64,000 nt of DNA from Colwellia sp. (GTDB lineage: Bacteria; Pseudomonadota; Gammaproteobacteria; Enterobacterales; Alteromonadaceae), in NCBI GenBank assembly GCA_013215385.1, contig JABSOY010000002.1, positions 1 through 64,000 on the forward strand, in the 5' to 3' direction. Both the position numbers and the translations under genes were made by a program. The notes beneath the pieces were generated by a model that was given only the letters and a program-made list of their open reading frames with translations, did no database searches and was not told the DNA's origin. Positions 14,285 to 51,961 of this stretch are shown here, one piece after another. Every line of letters starts with the position of its first letter. Position 1 is the stretch's first letter.

Positions 14285-14367
14285 AAGAAAATCCTGAAAA
14301 TGAAAGCAAGCACGCAGTGTAATGCCTCTATAAAGGTATGTAAAAAGTAAAAAAGGATAATTGAGAC

Positions 14368-14403
14368 CTTCAATATTGAAGTAATGCGAGTTCAATATCG
14401 AAC
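14368..14403. promoter_or_regulatory. Upstream activator-site pair for the exporter operon
   Basis: CTTCAATATTGAAG (14368-14381) and GTTCAATATCGAAC (14390-14403) share TTC-N6-GAA with the dyads at 12929. Centres are 22 bases apart, two helical turns, and lie about 116 and 94 bases before the predicted sigma-54 start. That is the usual place for enhancer sites of NtrC-type activators. The protein bound is inferred to be the regulator at 10268. Confidence 0.65.
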
Positions 14404-14463
14404 TATTGCGAAAAACATAAAAAACAATATTCATTAGTCATTGATATTTATTAATATTATTTT

Positions 14464-14479
14464 TGGCACGAAAATCGCT
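14464..14479 (+). promoter_or_regulatory. Sigma-54 (-24/-12) promoter of the exporter operon
   Basis: TGGCACG-AAAA-TCGCT matches the consensus TGGCACG-N4-TTGCW with one change. GG and GC are 12 bases apart, as required. The predicted start is near 14490, about 40 bases before the adaptor start codon. Confidence 0.72.
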
Positions 14480-14528: not shown

Positions 14529-15776
14529 GTGGATATTGTAAAAAAGAAGCCTAAGAAAACACTGTTAAATAATAAAACCGTCATGATAGTTATAGCGATT
14601 ATTGTCGTTACAGTCTTAGTGACCTATGCCAAGGCCTCTTTAAATAGTGTTAGTTTAGCAAGAAAAGACTTGTTATTAGCAACCGTTAAACAAGGGGATA
14701 TCGACATTACCGTAGAAGGCTACGGCAAGCTAACTTCAGACAAATTACAATTAATCACCACATTAACCCAAGCTACGGTTGAAGAAATTGTGCTAAAACC
14801 AGGAGCGGCGGTTACCAAAGAAAGTGTGATAGTAAAATTGGCAAACCCTGAATTGCAACAACAAGTGCAAAGTGCTGAATACTCTTTAGCTGAGTCCAAT
14901 GCAAATTTACGTCAATTAAAGCTCAATCAGAAACGTGAAAAGCTTAACGAAAAATCAAATTACTTAGAGCTAGTATCGCAACATAAAGCGGTAAACCTAA
15001 ACTTAGCGGCACAAAAAAAGTTGGTGAAAAACGGCATTGTGAAACAAATTGAGTATCAAGAAAATATATTACGCGAAGAACAACTTAAAGAACGCATCGC
15101 TATATTCATCGAACGTAATGAGCAACTTAGTCAGGTACATAAAGAAGCGATAAACATCCAACTGGAACGTATTAAACAAGTTGAGCAAAAACTAATTATT
15201 GCCAAAAACCGTCATAGTAAGTTAGTTGTAAAAGCAGGATTTGACGGCGTATTACAACGTTTATCGGTAAAGCTCGGACAAAGTTTATCTGCTGGGCAAG
15301 AAGTCGCATTGATCGGCAGTGTTACCGAATTAATCGCGTTAATTCGCGTTCCACAGAACCAAGTGCAATTAGTGAAAATTGGCCAGAAGGTTATGGTTGA
15401 TACCCGCCAAGTGCTAATTGAGGGGAAAGTTGTACGCATCGATCCTATCGTTGACCAAAATACCGTTGAAGTTGAAATTTCATTACCAAGCATTTTACCT
15501 GAAAGTGCTCGCCCAGAACAAAACATTGATGCCGTGATCACCGCTAAAACGTTGAAAAATATTTATTACCTTGATCGTCCTGCCAATGTTAAAGCTAAAA
15601 GTGAATCATCGCTTTATCAACTCAATAAAAATATGACTGAAGCAAAAAAGGTGACGATAAATTTCGGTGAAAAAACTGGACGATTTATTGAAATTAAGTC
15701 AGGCGGGAAATTAGGCGAGCAATTTATTATTTCAGATTTAAGTAACTATAAAACTCCACGAATCTCGATTTTATAA
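14529..15776 (+). CDS. HlyD/MacA-type periplasmic adaptor of the permease-array exporter
   Basis: A 415-residue membrane-fusion protein, starting at GTG after AAGAGA. One N-terminal membrane helix (about 18-37) anchors it; a lipoyl/barrel half (EEIVLKPGAAVTKES), a coiled-coil hairpin (about 110-235) and the return half (VVKAGFDGVLQRLSVKLGQ) follow. Adaptors of this type join an inner-membrane ABC permease to an outer-membrane channel. It is the first gene of the operon under the sigma-54-like promoter and precedes the ATPase by 34 bases. It resembles the broken adaptor at 6908. No TolC-like channel is encoded nearby. Confidence 0.92.
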   Translation: MDIVKKKPKKTLLNNKTVMIVIAIIVVTVLVTYAKASLNSVSLARKDLLLATVKQGDIDITVEGYGKLTSDKLQLITTLTQATVEEIVLKPGAAVTKESVIVKLANPELQQQVQSAEYSLAESNANLRQLKLNQKREKLNEKSNYLELVSQHKAVNLNLAAQKKLVKNGIVKQIEYQENILREEQLKERIAIFIERNEQLSQVHKEAINIQLERIKQVEQKLIIAKNRHSKLVVKAGFDGVLQRLSVKLGQSLSAGQEVALIGSVTELIALIRVPQNQVQLVKIGQKVMVDTRQVLIEGKVVRIDPIVDQNTVEVEISLPSILPESARPEQNIDAVITAKTLKNIYYLDRPANVKAKSESSLYQLNKNMTEAKKVTINFGEKTGRFIEIKSGGKLGEQFIISDLSNYKTPRISIL

Positions 15777-15810: not shown

Positions 15811-16515
15811 ATGAGCACAGCAATTTTATCACTGCATAATATCGGCAAAATTTTTGAAACTGAAGAATTAGAAACACATGCATTAAAGTCGATCAATTTA
15901 ATCATCAACAAGGGCGACTATGTTTCAATTTCAGGCCCGTCAGGTTGTGGTAAATCAACTTTACTTTCAATTATGGGCTTGCTTGATGTGAGTAGCAGTG
16001 GTGAATACTTTATTGAAGGCGTTAATGTTACCGACTTATCGCTTGATGACGCCGCAGAGGTGAGAAATGCAAAAATTGGTTTTATATTTCAGTCGTTTAA
16101 TTTGATAGATGAACTGTCTGTATTCGACAATGTCGCGTTGCCTCTGCGTTACCATGCCGATAAACCGAATAATGCCACCATTAAAAAACGTGTGACAGAA
16201 TGCTTAGAAAAAGTGGCTTTGTCACATCGTATTAGCCATAAGCCGAATCAACTTTCTGGTGGCCAACAGCAACGTGTTGCCATAGCGCGTGCATTAGTCG
16301 CAAACCCCGCCGTGTTATTAGTTGATGAGCCGACCGGTAATCTTGACTCTAAAAGCGGTGACCAAGTCATGGATGTACTTGATCAGCTTAACAAAGCAGG
16401 CACCACTATTTGTATGGTAACCCATGATCCGCGCTATGCCGATATGGCTCGTACAAAAGTACAGTTACTTGACGGTACTATTTTACAATCGCCGGCAATA
16501 AAAATAGCGAGTTAA
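15811..16515 (+). CDS. ABC exporter ATP-binding protein (MacB/LolD type)
   Basis: A 234-residue ATPase subunit with Walker [12 protein letters not shown] (about 42-52), Q-loop [12 protein letters not shown], signature [15 protein letters not shown], Walker [13 protein letters not shown] and H-loop MVTHD. It powers FtsX/MacB-type permeases by mechanotransmission rather than classical transport. It is the only ATPase in the array locus, so it presumably serves all six permeases. An AAGGATATTTAC ribosome site precedes the ATG. Confidence 0.94.
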
Positions 16516-16678: not shown

Positions 16679-19093
16679 GTGAACTTATTCATTTACCAAT
16701 TAAAACAAGCTTATTTAAGCTTAAAGCAAAAACCTATTTTTGTGCTTAGTGTAGTTTCGACTATGGGCATAACATTGGGGGCTTTATTGTGTGTGCTTAC
16801 TTTAGCGTATGTCATGTTAATAAAACCTTTGCCATACCCGGATCAAGAACGTCTTTATAATGTTGAACACCAATTAATAAGCAATGAAAACGCTATCGAT
16901 GGTCGTGCGTTTACTTACCCCAACTTGATGCATTTATACAATAAACAGTCGTTATTTGAACAAAGTGTTTTAATGTATGTTGATGGCGATGTTATTACGT
17001 CGTTACCAAGTGAACCTATGGTTGCGCTGTCATTTGTTAGCCCACAATGGTTTTCTTTATTCTCTGCAAAAATGGCACTAGGTAGAGGTTTTGAAGCAAG
17101 TGAAAAAGTGAACAGTTATAACCCTGTTGCTGTTTTAAGTTATGAAACTTGGCAAAATAAGTTTGATGGTACGGCTAATGTGCTTGAACAAAATCTAACC
17201 TTAGGTGGCAATAGCTACCGGATAATTGGCGTACTCGCAGCAAGTAACATTGAAGCACCACTGGCCGGAGCTGGTTTTAAAACAGAATTATACCTGCCAT
17301 GGGATTATAATTCGGTAAGCGAGCGTGAACGCAAACGTTGGGGAAATGACGATGGCGGATTGATATTTGTTGGCAAGCTCGATAAAAAATACAGCGGCTA
17401 TTCAAAACAAAAAATAGACCAAATTCTAACAAGGTTAGTCAGTGACAATTGGCAAAGTGAAGTTGCCGGTCATGCATTTTTCAAAGATTGGTCGATAGCG
17501 CTTCAAACAAAAACATTAAAGTCTTTTATCGTTAGCGATGGCGAACGTAGTGTTTACTTATTATTAATTGGCGCCTTAGGTTTATTGTTGATAGCTTGCG
17601 CAAACATTGCCAATTTATTTGTTTCTCGAACCGTTGAACGACAACAGCAATTAGCCATATCAGCGGCTGTTGGCGCATCTAAAACGCAAATATTTCATAA
17701 CATTTTAGCGGAAACAGGCTTGTTAATGTTTGTTGCTATAGTGCTGGCGCAGTTTATTATTTTTATCGGCTTTAGCGCTTTACAATATTATCTTGGTGAT
17801 TTCCTACCACGCATTGATGAACTTGAACTGAATAGCTTTTCATTTAGCATTTCAACTTTACTATTAGTGCTATTAACCGTTGTTTTTTCACTCTTGTGCC
17901 GAAAAATGATCAACTACCATGCCCTAAATACGACGTTGCAATCGAGTGGTAAAGGCAGTGGCATTCAAGTGTCAAAGCGAGTGAGAAATATCCTGATTAG
18001 TAGTCAAATAGCGATAGCAACAACCTTGGTTTTTATTAATGTTGTTCTGTATAAAGATGCCAGTGAATTAGTCAACCAGCCTTTGGGTTATCAAACAGAA
18101 AATATTACTTCGGTCGTATTAGCACTACCCAGTGTTGAAAAAGGCTTGCAGGTGCAAAAAATCAACGAGCTTAAAAGTGAATTATTAGCTCATCCGAAAG
18201 TAAAAAATGTTAGCCAAGCGATGCGTCCTACGGGGTTTGGCACTTTAGCGCTTACTGCGAGTATTACCGAGCAACGTTACACGGTATTAGGCAAAGATGT
18301 TGATGAACAATATTTCAATATGCTTGAACAAGAAATTATTGCAGGTGAAAACTTCAGTGCCGCCGATATAAAAGACGATAGCAGTGTGATGATTGTTAAC
18401 GACGTTTTTGCGAAAAAATTAGCACCAAATGGTAGCGCTATTGGTTTTAAATTTAAAAATGGTGTCGAAATTATCGGTGTTGTTAACAGCATTAATGTGC
18501 CAGGTCGACAACGCATAGAGTCTCGCTTTTATTACCCCGCAAGTTTAGCAAGAAACATGTTATTGATTGAACAACATCAAGGGCAAGTTTTTAGCCGTGA
18601 TGAAATGATTACCGCACTTAAAAAAGTCGATAGAAAATTGAGTTTGTTCAGTTTTACTTCGCTCAATGAATATAAAAACCAGCGCTTATTTTCTTCACAA
18701 ACTACCGCAGTAACCACCTTAGTTTTGGCCATTTTAACACTGTTTTTATCAGGGCTCGGTTTGTACGGTATTCTTAACTACTCAAGCCAAATGCGTCGGT
18801 CAGAAATAGGGACGCGCATGGCGATTGGCGCCAAAGGCAAAGACATTGTCGGTTTGGTCATTAAAGACAATGCCGGCGCCTTAGTTATTGGCTTAGCGGT
18901 AAGTTTTGTGGTGTTATTAGTGTTGTATCTCAGTTTTAGTGACAGCTTAAGTGCTTATATTAACTTAGAGCTTCTACCGTTATTTATGCTGACAATGGGC
19001 GCGATAGCTCTGCTTTCATCGCTTGCCTGTTATATACCGTTACGTCAGTTTATTAAAAAACCTGTCATTCATTCTTTGAAGGGCAGTGAATAA
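16679..19093 (+). CDS. MacB/FtsX-type ABC permease, array copy 1
   Basis: An 804-residue permease starting at GTG. Order: cytoplasmic amphipathic start, membrane helix 1 (about 20-47), periplasmic MacB_PCD domain (about 50-270), FtsX block with three helices (about 288-420), a second helix-plus-periplasmic unit (about 435-680) and a final FtsX block (about 690-790). The duplicated layout matches the large ADOP-type permeases of MacB-like systems. It is the most divergent copy at its N-terminus (YLSLKQKPIFVLS). Stop and next start overlap (TAATG), so translation is coupled to copy 2. Substrate unknown. Confidence 0.92.
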   Translation: MNLFIYQLKQAYLSLKQKPIFVLSVVSTMGITLGALLCVLTLAYVMLIKPLPYPDQERLYNVEHQLISNENAIDGRAFTYPNLMHLYNKQSLFEQSVLMYVDGDVITSLPSEPMVALSFVSPQWFSLFSAKMALGRGFEASEKVNSYNPVAVLSYETWQNKFDGTANVLEQNLTLGGNSYRIIGVLAASNIEAPLAGAGFKTELYLPWDYNSVSERERKRWGNDDGGLIFVGKLDKKYSGYSKQKIDQILTRLVSDNWQSEVAGHAFFKDWSIALQTKTLKSFIVSDGERSVYLLLIGALGLLLIACANIANLFVSRTVERQQQLAISAAVGASKTQIFHNILAETGLLMFVAIVLAQFIIFIGFSALQYYLGDFLPRIDELELNSFSFSISTLLLVLLTVVFSLLCRKMINYHALNTTLQSSGKGSGIQVSKRVRNILISSQIAIATTLVFINVVLYKDASELVNQPLGYQTENITSVVLALPSVEKGLQVQKINELKSELLAHPKVKNVSQAMRPTGFGTLALTASITEQRYTVLGKDVDEQYFNMLEQEIIAGENFSAADIKDDSSVMIVNDVFAKKLAPNGSAIGFKFKNGVEIIGVVNSINVPGRQRIESRFYYPASLARNMLLIEQHQGQVFSRDEMITALKKVDRKLSLFSFTSLNEYKNQRLFSSQTTAVTTLVLAILTLFLSGLGLYGILNYSSQMRRSEIGTRMAIGAKGKDIVGLVIKDNAGALVIGLAVSFVVLLVLYLSFSDSLSAYINLELLPLFMLTMGAIALLSSLACYIPLRQFIKKPVIHSLKGSE

Positions 19094-21546
19094 TGAACCT
19101 ATTTACCTATCAATTAAAACAAGCATTTCTAAGCCTCAAACAAAAGCCGGGCTTTGTCTTTAGTATTATTTCAACCATGGGCATTACTTTAGGTGCTTTG
19201 TTGTGTGTATTAACGCTAGCCTACTTGCTGCTAATTGAGCCATTGCCTTACCCCGAGCAAGATCGCCTTTTTGTCGCTGAACATAAGGTTATCGGCGCAA
19301 AAAAAGAGACCAAAACGATTGCTTATAGTTATGCTGGCTTGGTGCACTTGTACAAAAGTAAAGTGGCATTTGAGCAAACGGCAATGATGTATTATGACCA
19401 AGATGTGATCATTTCTCACCTTAGCCAACCACTTGTTAATACCACTTATACTACACCAGAGTTACATCAACTTTTAGCGTCGACTATGGCGATAGGCCGA
19501 ATGTTTGCGGCGAGCGAAGCCTTAGATACCAATAATCCAGTAGCTATGCTCAGTTATAATGCTTGGCAGCAAAAGTATGATGGCAATGCAGATATTCTTG
19601 AGCAAAAAATCAATATTAGGGGTGTTAGTTATCGTATTGTTGGTGTCTTGGCAAAAAACTTTGTTGAACCAGAATTGGCTGAAATTGGCCGTGAAACGCA
19701 AGTTTGGCTGCCATGGGACTTTAATCAGACTGACCAAGGGAGCAGAGAAAGTTTTTTGAGTATAAAAGGTAACTTTAAATTTATTGGTCAATTAAAAGAA
19801 GGGCTTAGCCAAAGACAAGCACAACAACTTTTAACCCCTTTAGTGAGTGAACGTTGGCAAGAAGGTGTTGCTGACATGGACTTTTTCAAAGCTTGGTCAA
19901 TCGAAATGCGAGTCCGCTCAGTTAAGGACGTTATGCTCGGGGAGAGTGAGTCTATTGCGGTCATGTTGTTAGCGGGTGTGATTGGTTTAGTCTTGATTGC
20001 CTGCGCAAATATCTCTAATTTGTTTATCGCACGTACTGCAGAAAAGCAACGTCAAATGGCGATTCAAGCCGCGATTGGTGCCACTAAAAAACATTTATTT
20101 AAAGCGATGTTTGCTGAAACTAGTTTGCTGATGTTGATGTCGATCATACTCGCCTTGGTACTTTCCAAGGGCGGATTTTATATTATGCAGCAATATTTGG
20201 CCTCGGTATTACCGCGAGTTGACGAGTTATCTCTTAATCCGATAACTCTTAGCTGTGCGGCGCTGATCACCCTTATGTTTGCATTGTTTTTTGCTAAATT
20301 AAGTACTCGTATTATCAATTATCGTGCACTCAATGCTAGCTTACAAAGTAGTGGTAAGGGCAGTGGTTTACAGGTATCAACAAAGACACGCCAAGTATTA
20401 ATCGCCAGCCAAGTGGCATTAGCGACGTTATTAGTATTTGCCAACTTTAGCTTACTTAAAGATGCCGTTAAAACCATTAATACCCCGATAGGTTTTACCA
20501 CTAATAATATCTCAACGTTAACTTTAAACTTCTCTTCAACCCCAATATCTAGTCAGGAAGAGGTCATAGCCATTATGGCTGAGATCATAGAAAAGCTTAA
20601 AGCCTTACCGCAGGTGGAAGCAATTGCGCATGGGAGTTCACCTTTAGATGGCTTTGGTATTAAATTGCTAACCAAACTTGCTGATAATGAAGGGCATTCA
20701 CCGTATTTAAAAAGAATTGATCATAGATATTTCAAACTTATTGAGCAACCGCTATTACAAGGTGAAAATTTTACAAAGCTAGATAGCCGAGATAACAAAT
20801 ATTCGATGATTGTTAACCAAGCTTTTGCTAAGCAGTTAAAACCTGACGGTGATGTCGTAGGTATGCGACTAGTATCGATAAATGAGCCTGAATTTAAAAT
20901 AATAGGCATTGTTAAAGATATTGCAATTCCTGGCGATACTCCGTTTGGCAGCGACGATGCAGCTGCGCCTATACCAAGGGCCTATTTGCCCGATAATCTA
21001 AACGACAACAAATTTATACTTAAAATAAAGGCTGGCCAGTCTATTAGTCGCCAACAACTGGGTAAATTGTTAGCCGAAGTTGACGCTAGATATTCTGTCT
21101 TTAGCTTCAAATCAGCAGATGACATGCTTACCCAAAGTCTCTTTACTCAAATTACTACCGCGGTGACAACGACAGCTTTAACGTTAATCACTTTTTTCCT
21201 CGCGGGCATTGGCCTCTATGGCATTTTAAGTTACAGCACACAAATGCGACGCCTTGAATTAGGTACACGTATGGCCGTTGGTGCAAAGCGTTATGACTTA
21301 ATATTCATGATCATAAAAGACAATATGAAGCCGATTCTCTTTGGCGTATTGTTTAGCATAATTATGTTATTGAGTGTGTATTTATCCTTCAGTGTTGAAC
21401 TTTCATCCTATATCACCCTGCAATTAGCGCCGCTGTTTGTCGCGACTATTTTATTGATTTCTACCCTTTCTTTATTAGCTTGCTATTTACCGCTCAGAAA
21501 ATTTATCAATGTGCCAGCGATAAACAGTTTGCGAGGTCATGAATAA
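19093..21546 (+). CDS. MacB/FtsX-type ABC permease, array copy 2
   Basis: An 817-residue permease with the same two-unit layout as copy 1. The periplasmic regions are closest to copy 6 (shared EHQLL-like stretch, QDVIIS, EPELAEIGRETQVWLPWD). The C-terminal tail (RKFINVPAINSLRGHE) departs from the QYINKPVIHSLKGSE ending of the other copies. It ends about 100 bases before copy 3, and that gap contains a palindromic repeat, so coupling to copy 3 is looser than at the TAATG junctions. Confidence 0.92.
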   Translation: MNLFTYQLKQAFLSLKQKPGFVFSIISTMGITLGALLCVLTLAYLLLIEPLPYPEQDRLFVAEHKVIGAKKETKTIAYSYAGLVHLYKSKVAFEQTAMMYYDQDVIISHLSQPLVNTTYTTPELHQLLASTMAIGRMFAASEALDTNNPVAMLSYNAWQQKYDGNADILEQKINIRGVSYRIVGVLAKNFVEPELAEIGRETQVWLPWDFNQTDQGSRESFLSIKGNFKFIGQLKEGLSQRQAQQLLTPLVSERWQEGVADMDFFKAWSIEMRVRSVKDVMLGESESIAVMLLAGVIGLVLIACANISNLFIARTAEKQRQMAIQAAIGATKKHLFKAMFAETSLLMLMSIILALVLSKGGFYIMQQYLASVLPRVDELSLNPITLSCAALITLMFALFFAKLSTRIINYRALNASLQSSGKGSGLQVSTKTRQVLIASQVALATLLVFANFSLLKDAVKTINTPIGFTTNNISTLTLNFSSTPISSQEEVIAIMAEIIEKLKALPQVEAIAHGSSPLDGFGIKLLTKLADNEGHSPYLKRIDHRYFKLIEQPLLQGENFTKLDSRDNKYSMIVNQAFAKQLKPDGDVVGMRLVSINEPEFKIIGIVKDIAIPGDTPFGSDDAAAPIPRAYLPDNLNDNKFILKIKAGQSISRQQLGKLLAEVDARYSVFSFKSADDMLTQSLFTQITTAVTTTALTLITFFLAGIGLYGILSYSTQMRRLELGTRMAVGAKRYDLIFMIIKDNMKPILFGVLFSIIMLLSVYLSFSVELSSYITLQLAPLFVATILLISTLSLLACYLPLRKFINVPAINSLRGHE

Positions 21547-21574
21547 TGACAACTATCCCTAAAGAAATCATGCC

Positions 21575-21603
21575 CGTCATGCTGAATTTATTTCAGTATC
21601 TCG
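21575..21603. repeat. Palindromic intergenic repeat, copy 2 (minimal form)
   Basis: CGTCATGCTGAA-TTTA-TTTCAGTATCTCG in the gap between permease copies 2 and 3. This is the bare arm-to-arm hairpin without the inner block of copies 1 and 3. Confidence 0.7.
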
Positions 21604-21647
21604 ATGTGGCGTGAAACACTTTTTATGGTTAACACAAGGCTAAAAAA

Positions 21648-24119
21648 ATGAACCTATTTACCTATCAATTAAAACAAGCATTTTTAAGCTTGAAGAAAAA
21701 TCCGGGCTTTGTTTTTAGTATTGTTTCAACCATGGGTATTACCTTAGGTGCCTTGCTGTGTGTATTAACATTGGCGTATGTGATGTTAATAAAACCGCTA
21801 CCGTACCCTGAACAAGAAAAACTCTATATCGCATCACATGAGCATATTGACCCAAAAGGGGCGTTAATGTTTGAGGCTTTTCCTTATCCTGCCTTAATGA
21901 CCTTATACCAAGAAAATACTGTTTTTACAGAATCAGCATTGGTTATGTATACCAAGGGCGTTTTACTGAGCCAACATGATTTACCTATGATGGAAGCGAC
22001 GTTTGTTTCACCGCAATGGTTTAGTCTCACGGGTATGCCGATGGTTATGGGCCGAGCATTTCAAGAAACAGAAACTGTTGATAAATATAACCCTGTGGCA
22101 ATTATCAGCCATGAAACTTGGGTAAATACTTTTTCGGCAGACAAGAAAATTTTAGGTAAAAAAATTGATTTTGATAATGTCTCTTATCAAATCATAGGTG
22201 TCGTTGGAAAAGGCTATATTGAGCCACAAGTTTATTCGTATCAACGGGGTGCCAGTAAGTATAGAAAAACACAATTATGGTTACCTTGGGACTTTAATAC
22301 CACTGACGTTGCCGCACGTAAAATTTGGTGGCAAGTCAATAATGGGCTTCTTATTGGTAAGCTTTCGGAAAAATTTACTGTCAGACAAGCTGAAAGTAGT
22401 CTAACACCATTGATTAATGAAAAATGGTTAGCGGCAACCGTTGGTGATAAACGCTTTAAAGATAAAACGAAAAAAATAGCCTTGCACGATTTCAAAAAAG
22501 TGATCATCGGAGACAATCGCAAGTCTGTTTATTTTTTATTGGCTGGCATTGTCGGCTTAGTGATTATTGCTTTTACCAATATTGCTAATTTAATGACCTC
22601 AAGGGCCTTTATGCAACAGCGTAATATGGCCATACAAGCGGCGATTGGCGCAAAAAAATCAATGTTATTTAATATGTTTTTTTGTGAAGCGTTAGTGCTT
22701 GTTTTTCTGTCACTTATCGTAGCGATAACGGTTACTTTCTTCGGTTTCTCATTAATTGAATATTACTTAAGTTCTTCATTGTCACGGGTAAATGAAATGT
22801 CTGTGAATGGTTTTACGCTCACGACATCGGTCATCATCTTATTAGTCTTCGCTTGGTTGTTCGCCAGAATATCATTAAAAAGTGTCAACAATAAAACATT
22901 AGCGGTAACGATCAATACCAGTGGTAAAGGCACGGCCAGTCAGCTACCAAAAACACTACGCCAAGTGCTTATTATTAGCCAAGTTACAGTTGCCAGTCTA
23001 TTGATTTTTATCAGTATGAATTTATTTAAAGAAGCGCTGACGAGTATAAATGCGCCGAGTTACTTGAATGTTGCACGGGTGATATCTTTAACATTAGCAC
23101 CGACAAAAACAGTTGTGTTAAGTGAGGAGTCAGGGCTAGCCGAATTAAGTGCAATTAAGCAAAAACTAGCCCAGTTACCGCAAGTTGATACTATTAGTCA
23201 CAGTGCATCACCTTTTACATTTTATAGTCGTTGGTGGCCAGGCTTAACGGAACAGGAGAATAATGAAAAACATAATATGGTTTACCGTATTATTGATGAC
23301 CGATATTTTGCTTTGTTTGAACAGTCATTATTAGTTGGTGAAAATTTTTCCGCATCAGATGTGCGAGATAAAAATAATGTCATGATCGTAAATGATGTCT
23401 TAGCTAACAAATTGTCTAAGCAAGGTGACGTTATAGGCAAAAAAGTTTTCTTCAAAGAAGACCGTATATTTACCATTGTTGGTGTAGTCAAAGGTATGAA
23501 AGTACCTGCAGAAAATAATATTGCTGAACGTGCCTATTTACCTCGCTCAGCCGTTTATGACTTACTGGCGCAAGAAAAAAAAGCCATGCTTATAAAGTTA
23601 AAAGGTGAGCAGAAAATAACTAGACAACAAGTTATTGAGGTTATTAAAAGCGTTAGCTCGGCTTATAGCGTCGACCAACTTGAATCGTTAGAGAATGTTA
23701 GTTATCAACGGCTATTTAATCAAATAGTGACTGCTGTTGTCACTGCGGTGGTCGCCTTATTGAGTTTGATACTTGCCGGTATTGGTATTTATGGCATTTT
23801 AAGTTATTCCATTCAAATACGCCGCTTTGAAATAGGAACAAGATTAGCTCTGGGTGCTAAACGAACGAATATTTTTACGCTGATTTTTAAAGATAATGCC
23901 GGGGGAATATTAATAGGCTTTGGCGTAAGTACCTTGTTGTTACTTTGTTTGTTCCTGAGCTTTAATGGGTACTTAAAGACATATATTAGTGTGCAAATGC
24001 TGGCGTTATTTATGCTGACCCTCTCTTTAATTTTAGCTATTTCATTTCTCGCCTGCTACTTACCACTGCGACAGTACATCAATAAACCTGTGATCCATTC
24101 TTTAAAGGGAAGTGAATAA
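21648..24119 (+). CDS. MacB/FtsX-type ABC permease, array copy 3
   Basis: An 823-residue permease. The ATG is preceded by a gap that holds a palindromic repeat. The N-terminal 50 residues match the array consensus, but the first periplasmic domain is distinct (HEHIDPKGALMFEAFPYPAL) and carries an insertion of about ten basic residues (YSYQRGASKYRKTQ) before the conserved LWLPWDFN. It ends with LPLRQYINKPVIHSLKGSE and overlaps copy 4 by TAATG. The distinct periplasmic part suggests a different substrate from its neighbours. Confidence 0.92.
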   Translation: MNLFTYQLKQAFLSLKKNPGFVFSIVSTMGITLGALLCVLTLAYVMLIKPLPYPEQEKLYIASHEHIDPKGALMFEAFPYPALMTLYQENTVFTESALVMYTKGVLLSQHDLPMMEATFVSPQWFSLTGMPMVMGRAFQETETVDKYNPVAIISHETWVNTFSADKKILGKKIDFDNVSYQIIGVVGKGYIEPQVYSYQRGASKYRKTQLWLPWDFNTTDVAARKIWWQVNNGLLIGKLSEKFTVRQAESSLTPLINEKWLAATVGDKRFKDKTKKIALHDFKKVIIGDNRKSVYFLLAGIVGLVIIAFTNIANLMTSRAFMQQRNMAIQAAIGAKKSMLFNMFFCEALVLVFLSLIVAITVTFFGFSLIEYYLSSSLSRVNEMSVNGFTLTTSVIILLVFAWLFARISLKSVNNKTLAVTINTSGKGTASQLPKTLRQVLIISQVTVASLLIFISMNLFKEALTSINAPSYLNVARVISLTLAPTKTVVLSEESGLAELSAIKQKLAQLPQVDTISHSASPFTFYSRWWPGLTEQENNEKHNMVYRIIDDRYFALFEQSLLVGENFSASDVRDKNNVMIVNDVLANKLSKQGDVIGKKVFFKEDRIFTIVGVVKGMKVPAENNIAERAYLPRSAVYDLLAQEKKAMLIKLKGEQKITRQQVIEVIKSVSSAYSVDQLESLENVSYQRLFNQIVTAVVTAVVALLSLILAGIGIYGILSYSIQIRRFEIGTRLALGAKRTNIFTLIFKDNAGGILIGFGVSTLLLLCLFLSFNGYLKTYISVQMLALFMLTLSLILAISFLACYLPLRQYINKPVIHSLKGSE

Positions 24120-26548
24120 TGAACCTATTTACCTATCAACTAAAACAAGCATTTTTAAGTTTGAAGAAAAAGCCGGGCTTTGTTTTCAGTGTTATTTCCA
24201 CCATGGGCATTACCTTAGGTGCTTTATTGTGTGTATTAACGCTGGCGTATGTGATGTTAATAAAACCATTGCCTTATACAGACCAAGAGCGAATCTATAA
24301 AATTGAGCAAGCGCCTTTTAGTACAACATCGAATAATAGTTTTCAGGGGCTAAGTTATCCCGCCGCGTTGGAAATTTATAAACAAAAGCAGCAATTTGAA
24401 CGCGTGGCTATATCTTATTATGGTGAAGAAGTATTAACGTCTTCAGAGAGCAAACCTTTGTTATCAACCAGTTATGTTACCCCTGATTGGTTGCCTTTAT
24501 TTAATGGCAATATGTTAATGGGTAGAACGTTTGAGCAAAGAGAGTCATTGAATGATTTTGCGCCTACCGCGATCTTAAGCCACCAAACGTGGCAAGAATA
24601 CTTTGATCATGATAACGATATAGTCGGTAAAAAAATTAGTGTGAAAGGAGCCACCTTTACTGTTATTGGTGTGTTGTCGGCAGATTTTTATCAACCTAAA
24701 TTAGGGCGTATTACTCAGCTCTATTTACCTTGGGGTTATAATACCGCGTCTGAAAGTCAAAAAGGTCATTGGGGAAGATTCTCGCGTTCACTCACCATGA
24801 TCGCAATGATAAATATAAATTTCGCTAAAGAACAAGTAGAGCAATCGTTAACCTTAGCGACTGATGAATTATGGCAAGAAAAAGTTAGCAGCATGGCCTA
24901 CTTTGCTGACTGGCAGTCTAAGGTTGCCATGACATCGTTGAAAGAAGTACTGATTAATAAAAGTCGTGATTCGATATATTTGTTAATTGCGGCAGCATTA
25001 GGGGTAGTGTTGATCGCCTTAACGAACATTTCTAATCTCTTTATTTCTCATATTACGACACAAGCTAGTGTTATTAGCGTTCATATCGGACTTGGTGCCA
25101 AAAAGCATCATATCGGAAAATTAATACTTGTCGAAGCTTTGCTCATGATGACTTTAGCGATTGGTGTCGCTTTAGCTGTTACACAGTTGGGCTTCCATAT
25201 ATTGCAAAGTTACTTAGCCGATGTATTCTCACGGTCTCAAGAGTTATCAATCGATGGCATTACCTACTTGTTGGCTTTTACTTTTCTGATCATGCTGTCG
25301 GTTTTCTATACCAAAGTAAGCTTGTCAGTATTTAACTTTAGTCAAATGCCTAAAAATTCTGGTAATAAAGGTGTAGCAGGCCAAGTTAAATCACGTGTTA
25401 GATATTTTCTTATCGCTTGCCAAGTAAGTATCGCGCTAACGTTAATATTTTTAATGTTAACGATATACAAAGCGGCAATGACTGAGATAAAAACGCCTCT
25501 TGGGTTTACCAGTGAAAAAATTATGCAATTAACATTGGTGAGCGCAACTAATGAAGCTATTTCAGATGATGAAAATAAATCGATGCTAGCTGAAATAAAG
25601 AGATCGTTATCGTTACATGCAAACATTATAGCGGTGAGTCAGTCAAGCTCACCATTAGCAGGCTTTAGAGTATTTAGACGAGGCTTAAAGTACGAGGGTT
25701 CAACAGGTGAAGAGCGAATAGTTGCCGGCATTAAAGATGCTGACGCTGAATATTTCTCAATGCTCAATTTAACGCTAAAAGAAGGTGAAGTCTTTTCTAA
25801 AGCTATGATAGCTGATGACCAAGCTGTGATGATAGTTAATGACGTGATGGCGAAGGAAATAGATGCTAATGGGTCTGTTATCGGTAAGCGTTTATCGATG
25901 AGAGGTGACGATTATTTTACCATTGTTGGCGTTGTTGAAGGTGCGGTTAAAGTACCAGACCAGCAAAGCATTGTTCGTCAAGCATACTTGCCTGCTGAGC
26001 AATTAAGTAAGCAGTTTATTTTTGAGTATCGTTCAGCACAAGCTCCAACAAAAGAAGTGCTTCTTAATATTATTAATAGCGTTACCAGTAAGTTTGGGGT
26101 TTTTGAATATGAAAGTGTCGAAAACTCTCAAAAATCACTTTTGTTTTCGCAATACTTAACCGCATACACAACGTCAATTTTAACGATTATAACGGTAGTT
26201 TTAGCGAGTCTAGGTTTATACGGAGTTACTCACTTATCTACCCAAATGCGCCGTTTTGAAATTGGCACTCGCATGGCGATTGGTGCCAAAGGTAAAGATA
26301 TTATCTCAATGGTAATTAATGATAATGCAGGCGCTATATTACTGGGCGTTGGTGTAAGTGTTCTAACATTGTTGGCCTTATATTTTGGCTTAGGCGAACG
26401 TATAACAAGCTACTTTACCTTGGCGCTTATTCCCTTATTTATTGTCACGCTGGCGTTAATCTCATTGATTTCATTTCTGGCCTGCTACTTACCACTGCGT
26501 CAGTACATCAATAAACCTGTGATCCACGCTCTGAAAGGCAGTGAATAA
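24119..26548 (+). CDS. MacB/FtsX-type ABC permease, array copy 4
   Basis: An 809-residue permease. Its leader is nearly base-for-base identical to that of copy 5. Periplasmic parts are again different (EQAPFSTTSNNSFQGLSYPAAL; HITTQASVISVHIGLGAKKHH in the first FtsX block, where other copies have SRT...QAAIGAKK). The second half contains the conserved MRRFEIGTRMAIGAKGKD. It overlaps both neighbours by TAATG. It is the most diverged copy in the middle FtsX block, which may reflect relaxed selection or a changed partner. Confidence 0.92.
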   Translation: MNLFTYQLKQAFLSLKKKPGFVFSVISTMGITLGALLCVLTLAYVMLIKPLPYTDQERIYKIEQAPFSTTSNNSFQGLSYPAALEIYKQKQQFERVAISYYGEEVLTSSESKPLLSTSYVTPDWLPLFNGNMLMGRTFEQRESLNDFAPTAILSHQTWQEYFDHDNDIVGKKISVKGATFTVIGVLSADFYQPKLGRITQLYLPWGYNTASESQKGHWGRFSRSLTMIAMININFAKEQVEQSLTLATDELWQEKVSSMAYFADWQSKVAMTSLKEVLINKSRDSIYLLIAAALGVVLIALTNISNLFISHITTQASVISVHIGLGAKKHHIGKLILVEALLMMTLAIGVALAVTQLGFHILQSYLADVFSRSQELSIDGITYLLAFTFLIMLSVFYTKVSLSVFNFSQMPKNSGNKGVAGQVKSRVRYFLIACQVSIALTLIFLMLTIYKAAMTEIKTPLGFTSEKIMQLTLVSATNEAISDDENKSMLAEIKRSLSLHANIIAVSQSSSPLAGFRVFRRGLKYEGSTGEERIVAGIKDADAEYFSMLNLTLKEGEVFSKAMIADDQAVMIVNDVMAKEIDANGSVIGKRLSMRGDDYFTIVGVVEGAVKVPDQQSIVRQAYLPAEQLSKQFIFEYRSAQAPTKEVLLNIINSVTSKFGVFEYESVENSQKSLLFSQYLTAYTTSILTIITVVLASLGLYGVTHLSTQMRRFEIGTRMAIGAKGKDIISMVINDNAGAILLGVGVSVLTLLALYFGLGERITSYFTLALIPLFIVTLALISLISFLACYLPLRQYINKPVIHALKGSE

Positions 26549-29007
26549 TGAACCTATTTACCTACCAATTAAAACAAGCATTTTTAAGCTTGAAGAAAAA
26601 ACCTGGCTTTGTTTTTAGTGTTATTTCCACCATGGGCATTACCTTAGGCGCTTTGTTGTGTGTATTAACGCTAGCTTATGTGATGTTAATAAAACCACTA
26701 CCGTACCCAGACCAAGACCGATTATACCGTGTTGACAGCCAACAGTTTGATGCTGCTGGCGCTTTAAACGTTACCGCTTTTAGTTATCCGAGCTTGGTAC
26801 ATTTATACAAGCACCAGAAAGAGAAGAACCAGCAGGTTTTCGAGCAAGTCGCGTTAGCTATTTATGACGATGAAGTATTAACTTCACTAGCGGCGCAACC
26901 GACAATATCGACCGCCTATGTTACCCCCGAATGGTTTGAGCTTACTGCTGCCAATATGGCGATGGGTCGGCCATTTGCAGAGTCTGAGCACATTAATAGC
27001 AATGTTCCTGTTGCCGTATTAAGTTATCAAACATGGGTCAATGACTTTGCTGAATCGACGAATATTCTCAATGAAAAAGTAACTTTTCGTGGCGTGAGTT
27101 TTCAGGTTATCGGTGTATTATCGTCAAAATTTATTGAGCCGAAAATATCAACCATTAGCCGAGAAACCAAAATTTGGCTACCTTTCAACTTTAATGCTGG
27201 CGGCGAAACGTATCGAGCTCGTTGGTGGGACAGGGCGAATAATTTAACCTTTATTGGCAAGCTGGCTAGCGATGAAAATATTGCACAAGCGCAAGCGAAA
27301 GTTACCCAGTTAGTCAATGAAACCTGGCAAGAAAATATCGACCAAAACGGCTACAACAAGGGCTGGCATATCGAAGCGAAATTATTGTCTTTTCAGTCAG
27401 TAATTTTAGGCGAAAGTGGCCGCAGCGCTTATTTATTGTTATTGGGCGTTATTGGTTTATTAGCGATAGCCTTTATTAATATCGCTAATTTACAACTTTC
27501 TCGTACGGTTGAAAAAAAGAACCAACTAGCTTTACAGGCGGCTGTTGGTGCGAAACGCAAAGATCTTTTTAGTGTACTTTTTGCTGAATCCTTTCTACTG
27601 ATGTTTGGTGTGCTGTTATCCGCCTTACTTATTGCCCAAGTCGGTTTTGAGGTATTACAAACACAATTGCAGCAAGTATTACCACGGGTAAATGAACTGA
27701 GCCTTGGCTTATTTACCTTGACCAGCGCGGTGCTCACTTCTTTACTTTTGGCTATTTTATTTGCGTTATTAAGTTACCGAGCCATAGATTTACGCCGCTT
27801 AAACAACAGCATGCAAACCAGCGGTAAAGGCACAGGGTTACAAGTCTCGAAAGCGATGCGCACCTTCTTAGTGATCTGCCAAGTAACCGTGGCAACCGTA
27901 CTGATTTTTATTAATATAAACTTATTGAAAAGCTCATTAGAAACTATTTACGATCCGAGCGTAATGAAGGTTAAACAATTAAGCAGTGTGGTACTGACTC
28001 AATCTGATGCGAGTACCTTAACACGCGCAGAAAGCTCCGCTATTACCGCTGAAATATTGCAAAAAATAGCTCAATTACCGCAAGTGAGTGTGGCGAGTAG
28101 AAATAGCTCACCGTTAACTGATGGCGAAGGAACCTGGTCGCTAACCGAAGTAAGCTCTAACCAAATCGTATTACCGCTCGGTAAAAGTGTCGATAGTCAT
28201 TACTTTTCGTTAATGGGGCAACGGCTATTAATGGGCGATAATTTTATTGAAAGCCACTTTACTGACCGAGCACCGGTACTGATTATTAATGAACAGCTTG
28301 CTAAGCAGTTAGTCACAGAGGAGCAAGGTAATTTGAACGCAGCATTAGGTAAGAAACTTTCCTTTGGCGGCCCGAGTGCGTTTACTATTATTGGTATTGT
28401 TAATGACCATAAATTACCGGGGAAAATGACGATTCCAACGCGTGTTTATATGCCTAATTTAAATCGTGCTAACTTGCTGATTAAAGTAAAAAACAATCAA
28501 ACCTTAACGCGAGAGCAGTTAGTTGCCGCTATTCAATCGACCAGTAAGTCGTTCAGTTTATTTGAATTTTCAACGCTAGAACAACAAAAGGCACAGCGAT
28601 TATTTAGCCAGTATACCGTGGCAATTACCACCGCGGCACTTACCGTTATCACCTTCATTTTGTCAGCGATTGGTTTGTACGGTATTTTAAGTTACAGCAC
28701 GCAAATGCGCCGTTTTGAATTGGGAACACGCATGGCCATTGGTGCTAAACGTGGTGACTTAATCAAATTAATTATTAAAGATAATGCTAGCGCAATACTG
28801 TTGGGCATATTGTTCAGTGTCGGTATTTTGTCATTATTAACGATTGGTTTTAGTGAACAAGTAAACCACTACATAACATTACAATTACTGCCGGTCTTTA
28901 TCGTGACACTCGCGATGATCAGCATGCTGTCGTTATTCGCCTGTTATTTCCCGTTACGCCAGTACATTAACAAACCTGTTATTCATGCTTTAAAGGGCAG
29001 TGAATAA
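26548..29007 (+). CDS. MacB/FtsX-type ABC permease, array copy 5
   Basis: An 819-residue permease with a typical array leader and tail. The C-terminal block (GAKRGDLIKLIIKDNASAI, FSEQVNHYITLQLLPVFIVTLAMISM) is shared with copy 6 but with no other copy, while the rest of the two proteins differs; this is the donor-like side of a mosaic. About 200 bases with a palindromic repeat separate it from copy 6. Confidence 0.92.
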   Translation: MNLFTYQLKQAFLSLKKKPGFVFSVISTMGITLGALLCVLTLAYVMLIKPLPYPDQDRLYRVDSQQFDAAGALNVTAFSYPSLVHLYKHQKEKNQQVFEQVALAIYDDEVLTSLAAQPTISTAYVTPEWFELTAANMAMGRPFAESEHINSNVPVAVLSYQTWVNDFAESTNILNEKVTFRGVSFQVIGVLSSKFIEPKISTISRETKIWLPFNFNAGGETYRARWWDRANNLTFIGKLASDENIAQAQAKVTQLVNETWQENIDQNGYNKGWHIEAKLLSFQSVILGESGRSAYLLLLGVIGLLAIAFINIANLQLSRTVEKKNQLALQAAVGAKRKDLFSVLFAESFLLMFGVLLSALLIAQVGFEVLQTQLQQVLPRVNELSLGLFTLTSAVLTSLLLAILFALLSYRAIDLRRLNNSMQTSGKGTGLQVSKAMRTFLVICQVTVATVLIFININLLKSSLETIYDPSVMKVKQLSSVVLTQSDASTLTRAESSAITAEILQKIAQLPQVSVASRNSSPLTDGEGTWSLTEVSSNQIVLPLGKSVDSHYFSLMGQRLLMGDNFIESHFTDRAPVLIINEQLAKQLVTEEQGNLNAALGKKLSFGGPSAFTIIGIVNDHKLPGKMTIPTRVYMPNLNRANLLIKVKNNQTLTREQLVAAIQSTSKSFSLFEFSTLEQQKAQRLFSQYTVAITTAALTVITFILSAIGLYGILSYSTQMRRFELGTRMAIGAKRGDLIKLIIKDNASAILLGILFSVGILSLLTIGFSEQVNHYITLQLLPVFIVTLAMISMLSLFACYFPLRQYINKPVIHALKGSE

Positions 29008-29036
29008 TGGTCATGATGTTTAAGGCTATAACTTTC

Positions 29037-29160
29037 CGTCATGCTGAATTTATTTCAGACTCTCAAAGTAGTGCAAGGATAGTCGAAAATCAGCTCATGA
29101 AACCCAGGTTTATGTTCCAGACTAAACCTCAGTACCTACATCCGTGTAGGCAAGTTCAAG
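29037..29160. repeat. Palindromic intergenic repeat, copy 3 (with inverted block)
   Basis: Begins with the CGTCATGCTGAATTTATTTCAG hairpin (written here as arms CGTCATGCTGA and TTTCAG) and at 29105-29154 carries the reverse complement of the inner block of copy 1 (CAGGTTTATGTTCC, TAAACCTCAGTACCTACATC). It lies between permease copies 5 and 6. Confidence 0.7.
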
Positions 29161-29203
29161 ATGACAATCTCGGTCATATCATGGTTAACGGAAAACTAAC
29201 ATA

Positions 29204-31651
29204 ATGAATTTATTTCTCTATCAACTAAAACAAGCATTGTTAAGTCTGAAGAAAAAACCGGGCTTTGTCTTTAGTGTGGTTACTACCATGGGCATTACGT
29301 TAGGGGCGCTGTTATGTATATTAACCCTAAACCATTTGTTGCTGGTAGAGCCTTTGCCTTACCCAGAACAAGATCGTCTTTTTGTTGCTGAACATGGGTT
29401 TGTCGACTCAACAAATAATAACGATGGTTTTTCTTTTACTTATCCTGGCCTAGTGCACTTATATAAGAGTAAAGATGCATTTGATCAAGCGGCGATGATA
29501 CTTCATGGTCAAGATGTGATCATTTCAAAAAACAATCAACCACTGGTTAATACAGCTTATGTGACACCTGAATTCCATCAACTGTTAGCCTCACCTCTGG
29601 CACTGGGTCGTATGTTTGAGGCCACTGAAGCCTTAGATACATACAATCCTGTCGCTATGCTTAGTTATAAAACTTGGCAACAAGAGTTTACTGGCAGTGT
29701 GAACATTCTTGAGCAAAAAATTAACCTAAGTGGTGTGAGCTATCGCATTATTGGGGTGCTGGCTGAAGGCTTTTTTGAACCAGAGCTAGCCGAAATTGGA
29801 CGGGAAACACACGTATGGTTGCCATGGGACTACAATCAAACAGGAGAGAGGTACAGAAAACGTTTTGGTAATTCAAACCGTAGGCTTAAATTTATTGGTC
29901 AACTGAAAGAAGGGGTCAGTCAAAGCCAGGCACAGCAAATTTTAACCCCTTTGGTGAATAATCGCTGGCAAGAAGGTGTTGCCGATATAGAATTTTTTAA
30001 GGGCTGGTCTATAGAAATGCGTGTGCGTTCAGTTAAGGACGTTATTCTCGGTGGAAGTAAATCAATTGCGATTATGTTGTTAGCCGGTGTGCTTGGTTTG
30101 ATATTGATCGCCTGCGCAAATATTTCCAACCTGTTTATGTCACGTACCGCAGAAAAACGACATCAAATGGCGATTCTAGCGGCTATTGGCGCAACCAAAA
30201 AGCATTTATTTAAAACTATGTTTGCTGAAACTAGTTTACTGATGTTTATGTCCTTAATACTGGCATTGGTGCTTGCCAAGGTCGGATTTTATATTATGCA
30301 ACAATATTTGGGCGCGATATTACCTAGGGTTAGCGAGTTGTTTTTGACTCCGATGACTTTTGGGTTTGTGGTGCTAATTACCGTTATTTTGGCGTTATTT
30401 TTCGCTAAATTAAGTACCCGTATGATCAATTACCGCACGCTAAATACTAGGTTACAAAGTAGTGGTAAGGGCAGTGGTTCACAGGTATCTAAAAAGATTC
30501 GTCACGTATTAATTGTCAGCCAAGTAGCATTAGCGACAGTATTGGTATTTGCTAACTTTAGCCTGCTTAAGGGAGCAGTGAAAACCATCAATGCTCCGAT
30601 AGGTTTTGCGACCAATAATATCTCGACTTTGGTCTTGAATTTTTCATCCACAGATAATCCTAGCCAAAAAGAAGCGATATCCATTATGGCTGAAATAATG
30701 GAAAAAATCGAAGCGCTACCACAAGTGAAATCTATAAGTCAGTCAAGTACTCCTCTTGGCGGTTTTGGTCTATTAACGGTAACTAATCTTACCGACAACG
30801 AAAAATATACACCACATTCCAAGTGGGTTGATCATCAATATTTTAATATGATTGAACAACCATTATTACAAGGGGAAAATTTTTCTGTATTAGATCGTAG
30901 AGAACGTATTAATGTGATGATTGTTAATCAAGCTTTTGCCAAACGATTAAAAGCTGATGGTAATGTATTGGGCATGCAAGTATCTACGGGGCGTCCAGAG
31001 CCTTTCAATATAATTGGTGTTGTCAAAGATATTACCCTTCCTAGCGATACAGTTAAAGACAGAAAAAGTGCAGATATACCAAGAGCCTATAGAGCAAATT
31101 CGCTTAGCACAGAAACTTTTATGCTTAAACTAAAACTCGGTCAGTCTGTTAGTCGAGAACAACTAGGCAAGCTATTAGCCGAGGTTGACTCTAGATATTC
31201 TGTTTTTAGCTTCACCTCAGCAGATGACATGCTTACCCAAAGCTTATTTACCGAAATTACCACAGCGGTGACAACCGCAACTTTAGCGTTAATCACATTT
31301 TTTCTCGCGGGTATTGGTCTATATGGCATTTTAAGCTACAGCACTCAAATACGTCGTTTTGAACTGGGAACCCATATGGCTGTGGGCGCTAAACGTGGGG
31401 ATTTAATAAAACTGATTATTAAAGACAATGCTCGTGCAATATTATTCGGCATGCTGTTTAGTATCGGTATGTTGTTATTACTCACTTTTGCTTTTAGCGA
31501 ACAAGTAAACCACTACTTAACCTTACAACTACTACCAGTGTTTATAGTGACCTTAGCAATGATCAGCATGCTCTCTTTTTTCGCCTGCTACTTACCTCTT
31601 CGCCAATACATTAACAATCCTGTGATCCATGCTTTAAAGGGCAATGCATAA
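29204..31651 (+). CDS. MacB/FtsX-type ABC permease, array copy 6 (mosaic)
   Basis: An 815-residue permease. Up to about residue 715 it is closest to copy 2 (FVAEHGFV, GLVHLYKSKDAFDQ, QDVIISK, EPELAEIGRETHVWLPWDY, ATKKHLFKTMFAETSLLM, SADDMLTQSLFTEITTAV), but from IRRFELGT onward it switches to copy 5 (GAKRGDLIKLIIKDNARAI, FSEQVNHYLTLQLLPVFIVTLAMISM). The crossover lies near 31330-31390. This is direct evidence for recombination between array members. It overlaps the truncated copy 7 by TAATG. Confidence 0.92.
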   Translation: MNLFLYQLKQALLSLKKKPGFVFSVVTTMGITLGALLCILTLNHLLLVEPLPYPEQDRLFVAEHGFVDSTNNNDGFSFTYPGLVHLYKSKDAFDQAAMILHGQDVIISKNNQPLVNTAYVTPEFHQLLASPLALGRMFEATEALDTYNPVAMLSYKTWQQEFTGSVNILEQKINLSGVSYRIIGVLAEGFFEPELAEIGRETHVWLPWDYNQTGERYRKRFGNSNRRLKFIGQLKEGVSQSQAQQILTPLVNNRWQEGVADIEFFKGWSIEMRVRSVKDVILGGSKSIAIMLLAGVLGLILIACANISNLFMSRTAEKRHQMAILAAIGATKKHLFKTMFAETSLLMFMSLILALVLAKVGFYIMQQYLGAILPRVSELFLTPMTFGFVVLITVILALFFAKLSTRMINYRTLNTRLQSSGKGSGSQVSKKIRHVLIVSQVALATVLVFANFSLLKGAVKTINAPIGFATNNISTLVLNFSSTDNPSQKEAISIMAEIMEKIEALPQVKSISQSSTPLGGFGLLTVTNLTDNEKYTPHSKWVDHQYFNMIEQPLLQGENFSVLDRRERINVMIVNQAFAKRLKADGNVLGMQVSTGRPEPFNIIGVVKDITLPSDTVKDRKSADIPRAYRANSLSTETFMLKLKLGQSVSREQLGKLLAEVDSRYSVFSFTSADDMLTQSLFTEITTAVTTATLALITFFLAGIGLYGILSYSTQIRRFELGTHMAVGAKRGDLIKLIIKDNARAILFGMLFSIGMLLLLTFAFSEQVNHYLTLQLLPVFIVTLAMISMLSFFACYLPLRQYINNPVIHALKGNA

Positions 31652-32030
31652 TGAATTTATTTATCTATCAACTTAAACAAGCATTGTTAAGTCTCAAGAA
31701 AAAACCGGGCTTTGTTTTTAGTATTGTTAGTACCATGGGCATTACGTTAGGGGCGTTGCTTTGTGTATTAACGCTGGCGTATGTGATGTTGCTTAAGCCG
31801 TACCATATCCTGAACAAGAAAAATTGTATTGGCTTGAGCATGGCTTAGCTGACAGTTTTGGTGCAGAGCGAAGCAGTAGCTTTAGTTATCCTGGCCTGAT
31901 TCATTTTTATGAAAAGCAAACTGTTTTCAGTGAATCTGCATTGCTTTGTTTTGGTGAAAGTTTATTAGCCTAGGATCCTGCACAGCCACTAATTAATACC
32001 ACATTTTTAACGGCTGAATTTTTCCCTTTA
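31651..32030 (+). pseudogene. Truncated permease, array copy 7
   Basis: Starts like the other copies (MNLFIYQLKQALLSLKKKP) through helix 1. A net two-base deletion after MLLKP (before CCATATCCTGAACAAG, which should read PYPEQEKLY) breaks the frame near 31800; in the restored frame the first periplasmic domain continues (EKLYWLEHGLADSFG, SSFSYPGLIHFYEK) until an in-frame TAG at 31971, and homology stops near 32025. About 680 codons are absent. It marks a decaying end of the array at the boundary with the next gene. Confidence 0.92.
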
Positions 32031-51951: not shown

Positions 51952-51961
51952 CAATGTCTCC

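Follow-up and report, generated by a model that had tools for sequence, protein, structure and literature searches.

A 64,000-nucleotide (nt) stretch of a Colwellia sp. genome (the whole stretch is called the window here; the source genome, G000, has 5.1 Mb in 40 contigs) carries an array of six intact genes and one broken gene for MacB-type permeases in tandem, together with one periplasmic adaptor gene and one ATPase gene (Table 1). An earlier note on this DNA had reported this gene content, and open reading frames (ORFs), blastn and a genome search all agreed with it. We consider it probable that the locus encodes a Type VII ATP-binding cassette (ABC) exporter, regulated through sigma-54 and a two-component system, that pairs a single energising module with an exchangeable set of complete, internally duplicated permeases. 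A further-reaching version, on which our judgement is evenly balanced, is a plug-in exporter whose permease bodies would be cassettes that move between species and are installed by recombination at the constant gene ends, with the range of export, perhaps also of sensing, swappable and the ATPase, the adaptor and the kinase–regulator pair fixed. Descriptions of Type VII ABC systems usually give each ATPase one permease pair or a single fused permease; here and in relatives, a single ATPase and a single adaptor are accompanied by as many as nine permease genes. Such loci amount to a natural experiment that could separate the parts of a MacB-type permease needed to match the ATPase from those that set the cargo, and suggest a route for changing export functions without moving a whole operon.

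All six intact permeases (p1 to p6) carry two MacB_PCD and two FtsX stretches (Pfam, above cut-offs) and eight predicted transmembrane (TM) helices, and the best family match for each, nearly full-length, was ADOP (NCBIfam TIGR03434), at 390.1 to 470.8 bits, below the curated cut-off of 622.3. The permeases are ADOP-like members of the Type VII ABC class (MacB/FtsX superfamily). Sequence searches of the PDB matched them to MacB, and the ATPase to MacB and LolD, while the adaptor, with HlyD_3 and HlyD_D23 matches in Pfam and one N-terminal TM helix (residues 18–36), has the features of a MacA-like adaptor. When an AlphaFold2 model of p6 (49-row alignment, mean pLDDT 84.3, pTM 0.74) was searched with Foldseek, YbbP of Escherichia coli came out on top, followed by MacB, LolE and BceB, although the whole-chain fit to YbbP was modest (TM-score 0.39 by query length). 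YbbP is itself internally duplicated, and one copy of it binds two ATPase subunits, a 2:1 ratio of ATPase to permease (PMC12646458). Every permease of the array is likewise a complete, internally duplicated unit, and a permease dimer, homo- or heteromeric, is not needed because each permease already carries both halves, as in YbbP.

Divergence along the six genes was far from uniform. Mean pairwise identity was 89% over alignment columns 1–40, about 27–50% across most of the interior with 66–68% in windows over columns 720–780, and 72% at the extreme C-terminus, so that the nearly constant ends described in the earlier note are real. At the nucleotide level, the first ~170 nt were 90–91% identical in the pairs p3/p5 and p4/p5, and identity dropped sharply past codon ~60. 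The note had placed the divergence in the periplasmic domains; these do vary (identities of 0.38 and 0.34 within the six), but so do TM3 (0.39) and TM4 (0.29), and the variable part is the entire interior. Most of the genes are joined by TAATG overlaps, as the note also said, at four of the six junctions, with spacers of 101 nt between p2 and p3 and 196 nt between p5 and p6. In the p6 model, conservation concentrates in the N-terminal helix (residues 4–16) with TM1, in coupling helix 2 (718–726) and in the C-terminal segment with its helix at 807–812. Conservation was also compared over 67 array permeases from 19 genomes, a set that leaves out copies shorter than 740 amino acids (aa) or with no stop in the sequence retrieved, frameshifted copies (for example the first one in G310 and those in L028), loci with a single permease other than G038 (this covers the 'type B' loci) and repeat retrievals from a genome already included, and that retains the shortened 776-aa second permease of G340 (G codes denote genomes, L codes loci). 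Coupling helix 2 had an identity of 0.81 in the six and a mean of 0.86 over the 67, against 0.45 and 0.56 for coupling helix 1, which is part of the variable body. PMC5985334 describes three helices of MacB at the ATPase: an amphipathic one at the N-terminus, a major coupling helix, and a minor coupling helix at the C-terminus. By analogy, ATPase contact can account for part of the conservation of the ends, and the proposal of the earlier note that they keep such contact holds insofar as the expected contact helices partly lie there. However, coupling helix 1, which is also expected to touch the ATPase, is variable and not homogenised (same-genome nearest neighbour in 1.0 of 66 rows for residues 301–340), so functional constraint alone is insufficient to explain the ends, and contact leaves their silent-site homogenisation unexplained.

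That homogenisation was evident when the nearest neighbour of each permease was determined by nucleotide identity along the gene. The nearest neighbour came from the same genome in 20.4 of 64 rows at residues 1–20, 15.9 of 65 at 21–40 and 6.8 of 65 at 41–60, in 0 to 5 of 66 across residues 61–700, and in 9.8, 11.0, 21.4 and 28.7 of 66 toward the C-terminus, the random expectation being 4.2 of 66; this profile, like that of identity, is non-uniform. The use of the same codon at identical residues was also higher within than between genomes at residues 1–40 (0.530 versus 0.434, +0.096) and 786–815 (0.491 versus 0.402, +0.089), differences reached in 0 of 2000 label shuffles, while elsewhere the within-genome excess was +0.017 to +0.037, mostly above the shuffles, and probably reflects shared codon usage. 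Since the silent-site signal is larger at the ends, amino-acid constraint alone would not produce this pattern. Consistently, among 42 orthologue pairs the same-genome paralogue beat the orthologue in 16 at the N-terminal end, in 2 in the body and in 24 at the C-terminal end. A 30-row version of the end test went in the same direction, with weaker identity differences (label-shuffle p of 0.05–0.16 for the two ends) and the same nearest-neighbour contrast over all positions (15 of 30 and 10 of 30 at the ends, 1 to 4 of 30 between them). These sequence comparisons show that the ends evolve in concert within a genome, silent sites included, whereas the bodies track orthology across genomes.

Two bodies stood out by their low silent divergence from a counterpart in another species. 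Silent codon differences between p6 and G005_6, the slot-6 permease of G005, were 5% in residues 38–718 and 30% outside (0 of 300 permutations), and nine neighbouring genes pooled gave 47% between the two genomes; p2 and G002_2, the slot-2 permease of G002, differed by 9% in residues 147–711 and 32% outside (0 of 300), with 45% in neighbouring genes. For the p6 pair the Nei–Gojobori proportion of synonymous differences (pS) was 0.09 in the body and 0.42 and 0.33 in the ends, as compared with 0.54–0.83 in ten neighbouring genes, the adaptor and the ATPase included. The likelihood gains of the p6 and p2 pairs (25.7 and 24.8) were the largest of 66, the next being 15.6. Low silent divergence in bodies, relative to their own ends and to neighbouring genes, is the signature of body movement between species, and at least these two bodies have moved in this way with their ends staying local, presumably by recombination through the constant ends, which act as its boundaries. 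Purifying selection acts on the bodies, the nonsynonymous proportion (pN) being below pS in the pairs examined, and positive selection on the periplasmic domains was not seen (pN < pS in both periplasmic domains and in TM2–5, five pairs). Repertoire turnover is also apparent in the closest pair of genomes, G001 and G002, in which the left flank is 94.5% and the p1 body ~93–95% identical, yet which have two and eight permeases, respectively; the second permease of G001 is a mosaic, with slot 5 of G002 resembled by its last ~85 codons.

The copies of an array are old, distinct lineages, many of them common to several genomes and some to several genera. At 60% body identity the 67 permeases fell into 28 lineages, 12 present in more than one genome and 16 singletons. 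Only 2 of 138 same-genome pairs reached that identity (median 38%), and recent tandem duplication was rejected on that ground; p2/p6 and G002_2/G002_3 are moderately close pairs at 69%. In a tree of 83 permeases (quick method, LG+G4, with flagged long branches), most array members grouped with counterparts in other genomes and not with their neighbours. Gene order is partly conserved: the p1 lineage heads each of the five genus arrays, but in Cognaticolwellia mytili it is the last of three.

The combination of one ATPase and one adaptor with many permeases was found in relatives as well. Each array in the genus has one adaptor and one ATPase, side by side, with six permeases and one broken copy in G000, two in G001, eight in G002, five in G003 and nine in G005; G004, the sixth genus genome, had none of these permeases at an E limit of 1e-150 and no close adaptor at 1e-60. 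Both flanks are common to G000, G001, G002 and G005, with kinase and regulator on the left (retrieved only into part of the regulator in G001) and Sel1/M61 on the right, while G003 shares the left flank alone. Extra ATPases or adaptors matching individual permeases were not found elsewhere in the source genome, where the next-best ATPase (64%) and the next-best adaptor (38%) both lie on contig C29 with a permease of their own. In the wider family, where the two best candidates per genome were scored, 67 of 395 genomes had a close permease relative, the source genome counted. Forty genomes (39 of these 67, plus G038) were re-searched with up to 25 candidates scored in each, which, with the five genus genomes (all candidates scored), brought those examined closely to 44 of the 67; at least two such permeases stood side by side in 19 of the 40, partial copies counted, the largest array being that of G060 with eight. 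Over all related loci, the number of permeases that go with a single adaptor and a single ATPase ranges from 1 to 9. Relatives occurred in 12 of 295 genomes of the order sample and 7 of 398 of the phylum sample, source genome and family members included, with differing E limits and two or three candidates scored per genome. In named records the closest permeases belong to Colwellia, Cognaticolwellia, Thalassomonas and related genera, and no permease array of this kind was found in the literature, as covered by open-licence papers.

Two other layouts were seen among the relatives. A second locus type (L016, L018, L020, L021, L023, L025 and L026) consists of regulator, kinase, adaptor, ATPase, one permease and a further ATPase, and its permease is of the p2/p6 kind, 66–70% identical to p6. 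In L049 (G142), one permease lies between adaptor and ATPase and two more lie past the ATPase.

We propose a model in which each junction, made up of the 3' end of one permease and the first ~170 nt of the next gene, would be a homologous stretch that serves as a recombination substrate. Homologous recombination between junctions would delete, add or replace permease bodies in frame, so that the repertoire could change while ATPase, adaptor and regulation stay as they are. The ATPase dimer would dock on any one permease via its N-terminal, coupling and C-terminal helices, and each permease interior would handle a different periplasmic or membrane-borne compound by MacB-like mechanotransmission, handing it to the common adaptor and then to a TolC-type outer-membrane channel encoded elsewhere. 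The likeliest use would be to pump out, or protect the cell from, antagonistic amphiphilic compounds, the set of which changes. As to regulation, the sigma-54-like pattern occurs in 14 of 36 distinct adaptor upstream regions, compared with a mean of 0.04 in mononucleotide shuffles, and the NtrC-type regulator adjoins the adaptor in many but not all relatives (synteny). By hydropathy, the kinase has TM helices at residues 17–35 and 42–60 joined by a loop of ~6 residues, and ~160 cytoplasmic residues precede HisKA; 28 of 30 kinase ORFs from relatives are alike in lacking the sensor domain (L001/L024 being a single gene that was counted twice). As the kinase has no periplasmic sensor domain, its sensing may be either internal or via another membrane protein, perhaps the transporter, and induction would then come from inside the cell or through the transporter.

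Several observations weigh against this model or narrow it. We infer that all the permeases would be served by one ATPase and adaptor from linkage and from the conserved expected contact sites. In the bodies, too, there is a small same-codon excess within genomes (+0.019 to +0.032), which means that background such as codon usage contributes to the signal at the ends. A low-divergence segment at 0 of 300 permutations was found in only 7 of 66 cross-genome pairs, and the transfer claim rests on two of them, the other five being weaker (for example G002_2 versus G003_3, residues 514–619, 14% inside and 41% outside). Between G000 and G005, neither p1 (57 of 300) nor p3 (188 of 300) had such a segment, and that of p5 was weak (8 of 300). 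G005 and G003 are metagenome-assembled genomes (MAGs), while G002, the partner in the p2 transfer, is not designated a MAG. The right flank of G001 and G002 is 83% identical and so diverges more than the left one; some of the turnover in this pair may reflect a larger block having been replaced. Neither a plasmid nor a viral carrier was found: a plasmid tblastn search with p6 gave four records, all below 60% identity, and a scan of viral contigs gave no relative. Finally, the sigma-54-like pattern was not found in 22 of the 36 adaptor upstream regions.

Among other explanations, we consider it unlikely that the permeases are mainly receptors, that is, a Bce-like module whose bodies would each respond to different envelope-active compounds and inform the sensor-less kinase. 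The two-TM, short-loop kinase found here and in relatives, the retention of regulator and kinase at the locus in many of them, the presence of BceAB and BceABS among the fold matches and the operation of BceAB-type transporters with a two-component system (PMC5985334) all favour such a role. However, the adaptor beside the ATPase in the genus arrays points to export, the cytoplasmic residues before HisKA could themselves be the sensor, each permease has 8 TM helices and not 10, and some relatives have no kinase in the stretch retrieved.

Ordinary tandem duplication and divergence, with the ends conserved only through binding the shared ATPase, has a rather low probability in our view. It would fit the position of the N-terminal helix, coupling helix 2 and the C-terminal helix in the conserved parts, with the precedent of MacB (PMC5985334), as well as the two moderately close pairs. 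Against it, the copies are mostly old lineages with counterparts in other genomes, the silent-site excess within genomes is larger at the ends than in the bodies, the same-genome paralogues win over orthologues at the ends and scarcely at all in the body, and the p6 and p2 transfers involved bodies only. It is very improbable that the array is a silent cassette store in which p1 alone is expressed and the other copies are gene-conversion donors, as in antigenic variation. Although p1 adjoins the ATPase, its lineage occupies the first slot of all five genus arrays and the gene ends suit conversion, p1 does not resemble a conversion target. The downstream copies keep their reading frames open, with TAATG coupling at four junctions and with pN lower than pS in the pairs examined; one of the seven copies is broken. 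Heterodimeric or combinatorial permease pairs, raised in the earlier note and prompted by the co-encoding of several paralogues, were rejected and have almost no probability left, every permease being a fused double unit with both halves and eight TM helices, like YbbP, which works as one permease on two ATPase subunits (PMC12646458).

The exchangeable-permease exporter that we favour resembles several known systems in part. The darobactin exporter DarBCD (NF038007/NF038008/NF038010) has a separate adaptor, a separate ATPase and a permease of ~780 aa, and was matched by our ATPase (E 3e-73) and adaptor (E 4e-21), although all scores fell far below the curated family cut-offs (246 bits against a required 375 for the ATPase, 75.3 against 450 for the adaptor and no more than 51.2 against 700 for the permeases); no darobactin-type biosynthesis gene was among the scanned neighbours, with no search aimed at one made. 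In group II ECF importers, too, one energising module is shared by several exchangeable membrane subunits, but these are importers of another fold and not a recombining array. ADOP shares the internally duplicated permease with two MacB_PCD and two FtsX stretches, whereas the array scores under the 622 cut-off and is a tandem array with homogenised ends; ADOP permeases are presumably orphans without an adjacent ATPase, to go by the original name of the family, while this array has an ATPase and an adaptor adjacent. BceS-type kinases have no extracytoplasmic sensor domain, a feature that the array kinase shares by hydropathy. BceAB–BceRS is likewise a Type VII transporter linked to a two-component system; unlike it, the array has an NtrC/sigma-54 regulator, an adaptor and eight-TM permeases with two periplasmic domains, as against a 10-TM permease (PMC5985334) with one large extracellular domain. 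MacAB–TolC has the same Type VII fold, periplasmic core domains, adaptor and LolD/MacB-type ATPase, yet in MacB the ATPase is fused and each monomer has four TM helices (PMC5985334), whereas here the ATPase gene is separate and there are six or seven eight-TM permease genes. The TolC-type channel family was not among the window ORFs scanned, and no genome search for TolC was made. YbbAP(-TesA) of E. coli likewise combines one internally duplicated permease with two separate ATPase subunits, but YbbP has 10 TM helices and a TesA partner (PMC12646458), as compared with eight helices here.

Table 1. Genes and sites of the permease array and the row leading to it (window positions)
Feature	Position	Strand	Remarks
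LysR regulator	from 9304	+	first gene of the row leading to the array
NtrC-type response regulator (receiver, sigma-54 activation domain, Fis-type helix-turn-helix)	10268..11650	+	Pfam
Histidine kinase, two predicted TM helices, without periplasmic sensor domain	11631..12923	+	Pfam, hydropathy
Cytochrome c'	13080..13550	+	Pfam; beside the locus in some relatives (synteny)
Cytochrome b561-type membrane protein	13595..14434	-	Pfam; synteny
Sigma-54-like promoter site TGGCACG-N4-TCGC	14464..14478	+	pattern match, 65 nt upstream of adaptor start
Periplasmic adaptor (HlyD/MacA-like), sole adaptor of the array	14529..15776	+	
ABC ATPase (LolD/MacB type), sole ATPase of the array	15811..16515	+	
Permease p1, 804 aa	16679..19093	+	lineage in first slot of all five genus arrays
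Permease p2, 817 aa	19093..21546	+	residues 147-711 (p6 numbering) recently shared with G002_2
Permease p3, 823 aa	21648..24119	+	
Permease p4, 809 aa	24119..26548	+	no relative at 60% body identity among the 67 compared
Permease p5, 819 aa	26548..29007	+	lineage also in G005 and in another genus (G060)
Permease p6, 815 aa	29204..31651	+	residues 38-718 recently shared with G005 slot 6
Broken seventh permease	31651..32030	+	reading frame changes near nt 149, followed by an in-frame stop; truncation near residue 127

The first ~170–180 nt of the broken seventh gene match all six intact genes (blastn), similarity stopping near residue 127. For its variable part, the closest sequence is that of the gene which ends the G002 and G005 arrays (82% over 77 aa). 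At the expected place of its remainder lies a weak DUF4156-like match (32028–32501, minus strand); in G002 and G005 the next ORF listed past the last permease is a Sel1-type gene. The three spacers of the array hold related short repeats (16557–16625, 21575–21596 and 29037–29165), with CGTCATGCTGAATTTATTTCAG occurring twice, exactly, and a 69-bp inverted match of 84% between the first and the third; these may be small dispersed elements inserted at junctions.

Upstream, another, degenerate adaptor gene is present as fragments with stops (6953–7995, minus strand); in G002, G003 and G005 an adaptor lies past the LysR gene beside the array locus, adjoined by an ATPase in G002 and G003. The window also contains two more complete adaptor, ATPase and permease sets, each with one permease and both on the minus strand, at 49573–53880, whose permease has only a weak ADOP match (100 bits), and at 57027–61540. 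Near the latter are genes for a 4'-phosphopantetheinyl transferase (56033–56755) and a thioesterase (62009–62755), which suggests a non-ribosomal peptide or polyketide cluster close to that single-permease exporter.

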